A DNA stretch of 64,000 bases from Parapedobacter pyrenivorans (GTDB lineage: Bacteria; Bacteroidota; Bacteroidia; Sphingobacteriales; Sphingobacteriaceae). The stretch lies in contig NZ_BMER01000007.1 of NCBI RefSeq assembly GCF_014636865.1, positions 130,921 to 194,920 on the forward strand, in the 5' to 3' direction. The position numbers and the translations under genes were made by a program. The notes under the pieces are model-generated. The model was not told the origin of the DNA, searched no databases, and was given only the letters and a program-made list of their open reading frames with translations. This document shows, in pieces, positions 31,968 through 44,807 of the stretch (the first letter of the stretch is position 1; each line of letters opens with the position of its first letter).

Positions 31968-33758
31968 ATGGATAATTTTATCGTTTCGGCTCGTAAATAT
32001 CGTCCTGCCACGTTTGATACGGTGGTTGGTCAACAGCATATTACCGTTACTCTCAAAAACGCCATTAAAAATAAGCAGCTGGCGCAGGCGTTTTTATTTT
32101 GCGGCCCGCGGGGCGTCGGTAAGACTACCTGTGCCCGCATTTTGGCCAAGACCATTAATTGCGAGCGCTTACGGGATGATATGGAGGCTTGTGGGCAATG
32201 TGATAGCTGTAAGTCTTTCCAAAACGGTAACTCCTTCAGTATCCATGAACTCGATGCCGCGTCAAATAACTCCGTGGATGATATCCGCAGCCTCATCGAC
32301 CAAGTGCGCATACCACCGCAAACAGGCAAGTATAAGATATATATTATCGATGAGGTGCATATGCTGTCCCAGCAGGCATTCAATGCGTTCCTGAAAACAT
32401 TGGAAGAACCTCCTTCCTACGCCATATTTATTCTGGCCACCACCGAAAAACACAAAATCCTGCCTACTATCCTGTCTCGGTGTCAGATTTTTGATTTCAA
32501 TCGCATCAAGGTGGCGGACATGGCAGGGCACCTGGCTTCAATCGCTGATAAGGAGGGGGTGTCTTATAACAGCGACGGGCTCCACATCATCGCGCAGAAA
32601 GCCGACGGTGGTTTGCGTGATGCGCTGTCCATGTTCGACCAGATCGTGAGTTTCTCCAATAAAGAGGTGACCTATCAGGCCGTTATTGACAACCTCAATA
32701 TCCTCGATTACGAGTATTATTTCCGGCTTACCGATGCGCTTGTCAACGAGGATTCGCCAACAGCCTTGCTTATCCTAGATGAGATATTGGCTCACGGGTT
32801 CGATGGCAGCCATTTCATCAGCGGGTTGGGGTCGCACTTTCGAGATCTGCTTGTGGCCAAGGAGCCTGCTACGCTTAAGTTGCTGGATACCAGTGATGCC
32901 ATTCGCCAGCGCTATCAACAACAAGCCCAACGGCTCTCTCCAGGTTTACTGCTTTCGGCACTCAATATTTCCAACCAATGTGAAGTTAACTACCGCACGA
33001 GCAAAAACCAACGCTTACAGGTAGAACTGGCCTTGCTGAAGATGTGCCACATCACGGCAGCGATTCAATTGGCGAAAAACAATGTTGTGCATCCCCCTAT
33101 GGAGACGGCTGAAAAAAAAAAGCCTCGTGAATCCGTAACACCTACGGTGACCACGGACCATGAATCACAGCCACCGATTCCCCAACCACCGACCACGGAA
33201 CGTCAACCACCGGTCACGGATGTTCGCGTCCCAGCATCGCAACCTCCGGCTACCGAACCCTCACCTAAGGCCGTCCGCTCATGGGGTGATGTCAAACTGG
33301 GTAATGCCGTTCCTGACCTGAACAAGATTTTCGATGATAAGCAAACCGTAGCGCAATCCGATGAGCCCGAATTGCTTAATGGCGAAGAAAGGGAGATATT
33401 CAGTCCTGATGAACTGTTGGAACAATGGCATGCATTTGCTGACAAACTGAAGGCGGAAAACAAGATCAACCTGTTTACGTTGATGACGGCCAACGTACCC
33501 CAGCTCTTACCGGATTTTCAAATCGGCGTGGTGGTCGAGAACCCCATTCAGCAGGATTTGTTGAGCACCTCCAAGATCGACATCCTCAATGGACTGCGTA
33601 CGAAACTGCGTAATTTCGCAATAGATCTCGTTCCGATACAGGTCCAAAACGACACAACGCGAAAGCCCTATACGGCACAAGAAAAATATCAGGCCATGGC
33701 AGCCAAGAACCCGACGCTTGATGTGTTGCGGAAAACGTTTAACTTGGGGCTGGAATAA
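31968..33758 (+). CDS. dnaX: DNA polymerase III subunit gamma/tau
   Basis: A 596-residue clamp-loader ATPase. The AAA+ core has Walker A FCGPRGVGKTTCAR near 44, a zinc module with CGQCDSC near 78, Walker B YIIDEVHMLS near 125, and sensor 1 ATTEKHKILPTILSRCQIF near 160. The collar domain runs to about 370. A proline-rich linker (about 385-450) and a tau-specific C-terminal domain follow. The core loads the sliding clamp; tau also binds polymerase and helicase. At codons 382-385 an A10 run forms a probable -1 frameshift site that would yield a gamma-like product of about 387 residues (see the separate entry). Confidence 0.96.
   Translation: MDNFIVSARKYRPATFDTVVGQQHITVTLKNAIKNKQLAQAFLFCGPRGVGKTTCARILAKTINCERLRDDMEACGQCDSCKSFQNGNSFSIHELDAASNNSVDDIRSLIDQVRIPPQTGKYKIYIIDEVHMLSQQAFNAFLKTLEEPPSYAIFILATTEKHKILPTILSRCQIFDFNRIKVADMAGHLASIADKEGVSYNSDGLHIIAQKADGGLRDALSMFDQIVSFSNKEVTYQAVIDNLNILDYEYYFRLTDALVNEDSPTALLILDEILAHGFDGSHFISGLGSHFRDLLVAKEPATLKLLDTSDAIRQRYQQQAQRLSPGLLLSALNISNQCEVNYRTSKNQRLQVELALLKMCHITAAIQLAKNNVVHPPMETAEKKKPRESVTPTVTTDHESQPPIPQPPTTERQPPVTDVRVPASQPPATEPSPKAVRSWGDVKLGNAVPDLNKIFDDKQTVAQSDEPELLNGEEREIFSPDELLEQWHAFADKLKAENKINLFTLMTANVPQLLPDFQIGVVVENPIQQDLLSTSKIDILNGLRTKLRNFAIDLVPIQVQNDTTRKPYTAQEKYQAMAAKNPTLDVLRKTFNLGLE
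33101..33147 (+). promoter_or_regulatory. Putative programmed -1 frameshift site in dnaX
   Basis: The zero frame reads GAA AAA AAA AAG CCT. The heptamer A AAA AAG occupies 33116-33122 within an A10 run (33112-33121). A Shine-Dalgarno-like GGAG lies at 33101-33104, 11 nt upstream. A -1 shift gives GCC TCG TGA, stopping at 33128-33130. A small hairpin CCGTA/TACGG (33133-33147) follows. In E. coli dnaX the same parts (SD-like site, A AAA AAG, early stop, stem-loop) produce gamma. Function here is inferred; transcriptional slippage on A10, as in Thermus dnaX, is an alternative. Confidence 0.7.
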
Positions 33759-44173: not shown

Positions 44174-44192
44174 TATGAGTCCAAAAAAAAAG

Positions 44193-44807
44193 CTACGTTG
44201 CAGCTACCATAGCTGAAAACCACGTTTTAACCAGCATTTTGCGCTCTTTCATCAAGGTAATGGCCTGTTCAGATTTTAACCCCGTAATCAACTGGATAAG
44301 TGGCTTGCCGATAAATGGGAAGATAATAAGGCCAAGCATATTGAAGATAAAATGCAGGGGGTCAATATCCGGGCGCTTTTCGGCCAACTGCTTGAAGAGT
44401 GTCGAATCGGCGATGTTTGTTTTTGTCTTAATCAAGCTTGCAAACTTATCCGGGTTACTTCTGATTTCACCCAATACAAACAACGGGATATCCGGGTTAG
44501 CCAAGAGGGTATCAATATAGTGTTCGGCGACTTGTTCCACTTTTTCTTCGATGGAGGTGTTTTTATCCATAATGATCGGCCCTATTTTGCCGAGTAGGAT
44601 TTGCATTTTCTCCATGATGATCAACTCGAATAGCTTTTCCTTGCTACGGAAATAGTAATTGAGCAGTGCCAGGTTGATGCCGGCTTCTTCTGCGATATCC
44701 CGTGTGCGTGTAGCAGCATAGCCTTTTTGAGTGAAGACCTTCCGTGCAGCTTCCTTGATCTTTTCCTCGGTGCTGAGGTCCGCTTTTGCCGCTTTCGTTT
44801 TTGCCAT
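44193..44807 (-). CDS. TetR-family repressor of the efflux operon (CecR-like)
   Basis: A 204-residue regulator. The HTH domain (about 12-62) reads EEKIKEAARKVFTQKGYAATRTRDIAEEAGINLALLNYYFRSKEKLF, and a helical sensor domain fills the rest. It is the first gene of the operon, ahead of TolC, fusion protein, ATPases and permeases, matching the place of CecR before ybhGFSR in E. coli. Identical palindromes before it and before the TolC gene indicate self-control and control of the efflux genes. The inducer is unknown. Confidence 0.9.
   Translation of the reverse strand: MAKTKAAKADLSTEEKIKEAARKVFTQKGYAATRTRDIAEEAGINLALLNYYFRSKEKLFELIIMEKMQILLGKIGPIIMDKNTSIEEKVEQVAEHYIDTLLANPDIPLFVLGEIRSNPDKFASLIKTKTNIADSTLFKQLAEKRPDIDPLHFIFNMLGLIIFPFIGKPLIQLITGLKSEQAITLMKERKMLVKTWFSAMVAAT

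Follow-up and report, generated by a model that had tools for sequence, protein, structure and literature searches.

The dnaX gene in the 64,000-nucleotide stretch of Parapedobacter pyrenivorans DNA analyzed here (contig NZ_BMER01000007.1, positions 130,921 to 194,920; "the window") carries a run of ten adenines within its reading frame, raising the question of whether a shorter gamma form is made beside tau and, if so, whether it is RNA polymerase or the ribosome that slips. By its NCBIfam matches (PRK14971, E = 5e-249, and TIGR02397) and its Pfam matches to AAA+ parts, the lid, and domain III, it is a DNA polymerase III gamma/tau gene of the usual Bacteroidota kind. A preliminary description of the locus had reported the run with its A AAA AAG heptamer, a -1 frame stop shortly after the slip, and a position past the AAA+/collar region; each coordinate was found to be right, and domain III ends at residue 364, upstream of the run at codons 382–385. 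The features are as follows.

31968..33758, + strand: dnaX, tau form, 596 amino acids (596 codons); open reading frame with NCBIfam and Pfam matches
31968..33130, + strand: predicted gamma reading, 387 amino acids, 43.2 kDa, ending EKKKAS; putative product from in-silico run-length variants
33101..33104, + strand: GGAG, proposed Shine-Dalgarno (SD)-like stimulator, from sequence; probably a chance occurrence at such spacing
33112..33121, + strand: A10 slip run, then G; codons 382–385 (GAA AAA AAA AAG), from sequence
33116..33122, + strand: A AAA AAG heptamer, in phase, at the end of the run, from sequence
33128..33130, + strand: -1 frame stop TGA (GCC TCG TGA), which would end gamma after the gain of one A
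33133..33147, + strand: CCGTA/TACGG hairpin (CCGTA 33133–33137, TACGG 33143–33147), proposed stimulator, uncertain
33136..33138, + strand: +1 frame stop TAA, which would end gamma after the loss of one A or the gain of two

Matches to A10 or T10 number 13 in the 5,925,444 bases of the genome, corresponding to 11 distinct runs (two pairs overlap). The sole other A/T run of at least nine within the window, an A9 at 44183–44191 on the + strand (T9 on the - strand), lies directly past the stop of an ORF (44193–44807, - strand) that resembles a TetR-type regulator. Given the encoded peptide and the gene's own codon use, synonymous resampling gives P = 0.135 for a run of at least nine in the window dnaX, and the case therefore rests on conservation. 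An Rfam scan of 32900–33400, with E values up to 5, returned a single match far below its gathering score.

Conservation of the Run in Bacteroidota

We considered 239 loci, of which 21 were left out (14 duplicates; L051, L058, L116, L123, L125, and L313, with fewer than 300 codons after the core motif; and L193, with no recognized core), giving 218 distinct dnaX genes; the loci L140–L152 and L223–L296 came from searches not aimed at dnaX and stand outside the counts. A run was scored as at the site when it comprised at least nine A and began 215–275 codons past the LKTLEEPP motif or its near variants, and L066, with an A10 at 312 codons, was thus counted as run-less. By this definition 173 of the 218 genes from the phylum carry A9–A13 at the matching place, with 9, 10, 11, 12, and 13 A in 23, 136, 12, 1, and 1 genes, respectively; in the other 45 the longest A run in the site region is 2–7, and no gene has a run of eight. 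All three codon phases are represented among the run starts (83, 60, and 30 genes). These conservation counts, like the stop and motif statistics below, ignore shared descent.

The run is present in 52 of 56 genes from the set of relatives, 61 of 77 from named genomes, 41 of 62 from the phylum sample, and 19 of 23 from the class sample. The relatives' set covered 60 genomes, of which G016 and G045 gave only weak, paralogue-like matches (no dnaX came from G016, which belongs to the same family); the phylum sample took the dnaX loci of 70 of 118 genomes, 30 automatically and 40 picked to cover families; and the class sample used 30 of 62 matching genomes. The named-genome set consists of the best 80 matches listed, and one of the six peptides used to search for it, METAEKKK, contains the start of the run and could favor run-bearing genes. 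All nine genomes of the genus, including that of the window, have A10 followed by G in identical phase, with a -1 stop 6–27 nt and a +1 stop 11–59 nt after the run, and all 36 genes read from the same family have A9–A13 (tau in frame in 32, gamma in frame in 4). The loss of the run or of the -1 stop in close relatives, named in the preliminary description as a refuting sign, was thus not seen.

The run thins out with rising GC content and in the phylum sample. Grouped by core GC, it is found in 63 of 69 genes below 40%, 85 of 100 at 40–50%, 15 of 27 at 50–55%, 6 of 12 at 55–60%, and 4 of 10 above 60%, and it is kept in the GC-rich Hymenobacter genes L090, L094, and L096 (dnaX GC 64–65%). Elsewhere in dnaX, only four runs of at least nine A occur in 325,384 bp, comprising the cores of the 218 genes and the rest of the tau-in-frame genes.

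Stops in the Other Reading Frames

The run divides the genes into two layouts, called by which frame stays open for at least 300 nt past it. Of the 173 run-bearing genes, 130 have tau in frame, 42 have it in the -1 frame, and one (L170) has it in the +1 frame; homology between the -1 ORF and tau was seen among the matches listed for the relatives' set. Since the window dnaX has a single tau ORF it falls outside the two-ORF kind, which is found in 43 relatives. Compared by eye with L172 from the same genus, L170 (genome G142) appears to have an extra C before the run, which would be either an error in the sequence or genuine slippage in the opposite direction. A FastTree built from the DnaX core of 195 genes, with the columns of the run outside the part used, requires at least 21 exchanges of layout. 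Well-supported (starred) branches force 13 changes of the gamma-in-frame label; the tool itself cautions about long branches and advises less trust in FastTree stars. In the gamma-in-frame genes (43 of 173), a gene caller blind to slippage would be expected to split dnaX or to lose its end.

In the full set, all 130 tau-in-frame genes have a -1 stop no more than 30 nt past the run and 118 have a +1 stop there, leaving 12 with no such +1 stop; both non-tau frames are thus closed within 30 nt in 118, the window gene included. Control positions, taken at other places in the same linkers, were available for a 195-gene set that predates the class loci. All 114 tau-in-frame genes of that set have the near -1 stop, compared with 51% of control positions, and 102 have the near +1 stop, compared with 41%. 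Its 39 two-ORF genes all close the 0 frame (control, 40%), and 37 of them close the +1 frame (control, 47%); for the two-ORF genes of the full set, the corresponding counts are 42 of 42 and 40 of 42. Such a tendency to close both wrong frames is expected if slippage feeds both, and the keeping of a +1 stop is more than a -1 ribosomal shift alone would call for.

Motifs and Structure around the Run

The preliminary description had modeled the site on an Escherichia coli-like frameshift, with GGAG as an upstream stimulator and the CCGTA/TACGG hairpin as a downstream one. Both elements are present in the window gene. The GGAG at 11 nt is peculiar to it within the genus, being found in none of the other eight genes, and of the 173 run-bearing genes, 4 have an SD-like 4-mer (AGGA, GGAG, or GAGG) that ends 11 nt upstream of the heptamer and 6 have one that ends 10 nt upstream. 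There is no excess of such 4-mers 9–16 nt before the run (5 of 173 genes, compared with 7.3 by shuffling); there is one within the 8 nt directly before it (54 of 173, compared with 21.0), a position closer in than that of a stimulator of the E. coli type, and Flavobacteriaceae glutamate codons (ATGGAG, by eye) may account for much of it. Bacteroidia ribosomes are described as hiding the anti-SD sequence in a bS21/bS18/bS6 pocket (passages of PMC9976891), which counts against the SD part of a ribosomal model; a bS21 gene was found in the window genome.

Folding after the run is modest in the window gene (z of -2.02, -1.62, and -1.4 for 50, 75, and 60 nt), and across the 173 genes the post-run stretch is no more structured than a control place (z of -0.33 and -0.31). 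Within the genus, the 60 nt after the run have a mean z of -1.47 over the nine genes, with four of the nine at about -2 or lower, and are more structured than later stretches (mean z of -0.04, -0.69, 0.26, and -0.19), while the predicted structures themselves differ between species. In the comparison folded at 50 and 75 nt, L002, the sequence of which begins about 30 nt past the run, is uninformative directly after it. Post-run structure is thus mildly favored in the genus and not in the phylum. The heptamer A AAA AAG stands in phase in 41 of the 173 genes with a run and in nine of nine in the genus, and its fixation there together with the structure makes some ribosomal shifting well possible in these species.

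A tRNA search of the window genome, in which 150 of 234 candidates were scored, gave 44 tRNA matches, all of them named by ARAGORN, including one tRNA-Lys with anticodon UUU (L227) and one with CUU (L236); the genome thus departs from the E. coli pattern of a single tRNA-Lys serving both codons. The lowest score of the 44 belongs to a second tRNA-Trp (CCA; L266, G000:C6:68144-68214).

Mechanism and Alternative Explanations

The run is real rather than a product of chance and, by these comparative signs, functional; its conservation strongly supports the proposal in the preliminary description that the gene gives tau (596 amino acids) and a gamma-like form of about 387. We consider it rather likely that the A10 is a programmed transcriptional slippage site from which both are made. 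RNA polymerase would slip on an A run about as long as its RNA:DNA hybrid, resulting in a mixed mRNA pool. As translated in silico for the window dnaX, mRNAs with 10 or 13 A would yield tau (596 or 597 amino acids), those with 11 A would end at the -1 stop with a 387-residue product (…EKKKAS), identical to that of a -1 ribosomal shift, and those with 9 or 12 A would end at the +1 stop with 389 or 390 residues, respectively (…SLVNP in both). The short forms would be gamma, with the AAA+ module and collar but lacking the C-terminal region specific to tau. The absence of A8 runs and the predominance of A10 agree with a hybrid of 9–10 bp, as reported for Thermus RNA polymerase, and slippage that adds A's in falling proportion would explain why 42 of the 43 genes with tau out of frame have it in the -1 frame. 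What the sequences show is the run, its two flanking stops, the conservation of these, and the reversals of layout; from them we infer slippage in this organism, a mainly transcriptional origin for it, and the entry of the resulting gamma into the clamp loader.

Gamma is probably made, and transcriptional slippage of the Thermus type, which the preliminary description had named as an alternative, appears to be a likelier route than an E. coli-type frameshift and to fit the whole better, given that the run length and both stops are kept. That the 387-residue gamma alone is made, by tRNA-Lys slipping on A AAA AAG in a programmed -1 ribosomal frameshift, perhaps aided by structure, strikes us as unlikely, even though the window gene has the heptamer, the GGAG, the stop, and the hairpin together, the most shift-prone (AAG) form of the heptamer is fixed in the genus, structure is favored there directly after the run, and the position of tau in the -1 frame in the two-ORF relatives is equally its prediction. 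The GGAG spacing is lost in the eight other genes of the genus, the 173 genes have no excess structure and only 41 of them an in-phase AAG heptamer, runs of at least nine with none of eight exceed the needs of a heptamer, and the +1 stop is kept too; the presence of a tRNA-Lys with CUU and the sequestration of the anti-SD in Bacteroidia also argue against it. The preliminary description is thus supported in part, its pair of products more strongly than its E. coli-like mechanism, for which the heptamer and the somewhat better folding within the genus speak. The two kinds of slipping can act together. Every run of at least nine A, by simple reasoning, contains an in-phase A AAA AAG or A AAA AAA, and the latter is reported to shift with roughly 50% efficiency in vitro when an E. 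coli system and a stem-loop are used (passages of PMC6787027), suggesting that ribosomal slipping may add to the transcriptional kind; the structure seen at genus level likewise takes some weight from transcriptional slippage and gives it to the ribosomal route.

Two further explanations would dispense with recoding or move it to the DNA. The run could simply be a lysine-rich linker in an AT-biased code. AAA is favored in AT-rich genomes, where synonymous resampling of single genes shows that the run is not rare (mean P of 0.385; below 0.05 in 4 of 130), and the 45 genes that lack the run are more often GC-rich. We nevertheless regard this as very unlikely: KKK is absent from the site region of 42 run-bearing genes, as it is from all 45 run-less genes, and thus the peptide is not the conserved thing; where KKK does occur at the site it is spelled with at least A9 in 130 of 131 cases, compared with 1 of 18 elsewhere in these genes; the run is found in 10 of 22 genes with a core GC of at least 55%; and 43 relatives encode tau only in a frame other than that of gamma. 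What appears to be conserved is the length and the two stops, not the peptide or the heptamer. Still less probable is phase variation at the DNA level, in which genomic gain or loss of A would toggle cells between tau and gamma. A homopolymer and layouts that vary among relatives would suit it, but A10 is kept in 136 of 173 genes and each layout has its own near stops, so the layouts look like settled states. As part of the clamp loader, tau is, moreover, expected to be necessary for every cell.

Genes without the Run

Three run-less genes from metagenome-assembled genomes (MAGs) titled Bacteroidales or Bacteroidetes, L110, L117, and L130, have an in-frame TAG at the gamma/tau border, in the context TAGATTGC[A/T]AGG, with ATTGC[A/T]AGG directly after each TAG. 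The TAG follows codon 414, 370, and 387 of the open frame, respectively, and beyond it the same frame continues without a stop over 201, 189, and 254 codons that look tau-like by eye. These genes are candidates for UAG readthrough, in which readthrough would give tau and termination gamma. Predicted structures after the UAG are not consistently strong in the three, and a pattern for the UAG element matched 98 of 295 genomes irrespective of position relative to dnaX, which is about the level of the reversed control. No kin of L130 with more than 66% identity appeared among the matches listed, and this type was absent from the 23 new dnaX genes of the class sample.

Other run-less genes have other features at the border. 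L077, from a Bacteroidaceae MAG, has an in-phase G_GGG_GGG with a -1 TAG 5 nt on, a possible slip site. L105 has an in-phase A AAA AAA (seven A, below our length rule), also with a -1 TAG 5 nt on. In L124 the dnaX frame ends with TAA near the border, past which a different frame has 248 open codons.

Comparison with Known Systems

In Thermus, dnaX is described as undergoing transcriptional slippage on A9, each of the other frames being closed by a stop and two tRNA-Lys being present (passages of PMC5009743 and PMC1088944); the slippage adds one or more A's, larger additions being progressively rarer, and the hybrid is 9–10 bp (passages of PMC5009743). In E. coli, dnaX uses a -1 shift with a heptamer, an SD-like site, a stem-loop, and one tRNA-Lys (passages of PMC6787027 and PMC5009743). 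Passages of Antonov 2013 (PMC3711429) report two-ORF dnaX genes, nine of them with A10, for which slippage was proposed, and 17 dnaX genes with tau in the -1 frame, naming Thermus, genera of the E. coli type, and Chlorobi. A literature search of limited scope found no publication dealing with the run across Bacteroidota. Thermus-type slippage in dnaX is already known; the interest here lies in its apparent breadth and the reversals of layout.

We lean, with some reserve, toward a broader reading, in which a poly-A switch of the length of the RNA polymerase hybrid would be an old, phylum-wide Bacteroidota device for making gamma and tau, with many flips of layout, and lost runs in some Bacteroidales would perhaps have been replaced by UAG readthrough. 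The keeping of the slip site in most of the phylum, through changes of phase and layout, suggests that selection sees the possession of both forms. The importance of gamma is disputed; in E. coli it has been linked to UV resistance and to mutagenesis by Pol IV (passages of PMC5009743). The run-bearing dnaX set offers more than 100 natural variants for measuring slippage.

Like that of Thermus thermophilus, the window gene has one tau ORF, a run of 9–10 A, and a stop in each of the other frames, in a genome with two tRNA-Lys. It differs in having A10 rather than A9, in that slippage here is predicted from sequence, and in the position of the run, about two-thirds of the way through the gene compared with seven-eighths in Thermus (passages of PMC1088944). 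With the E. coli gene it shares the heptamer, a near -1 stop, and an end of gamma past the collar; unlike that gene, it has A10 rather than A6G, a +1 stop, an SD spacing that is not conserved, two tRNA-Lys, and structure that is hinted at only within the genus. Like the two-ORF dnaX genes of Antonov 2013, it has A10 at the gamma/tau border, and 42 of its relatives have tau in the -1 frame as described there; in contrast to those genes, the window gene has tau in frame and so would escape split-ORF screens.
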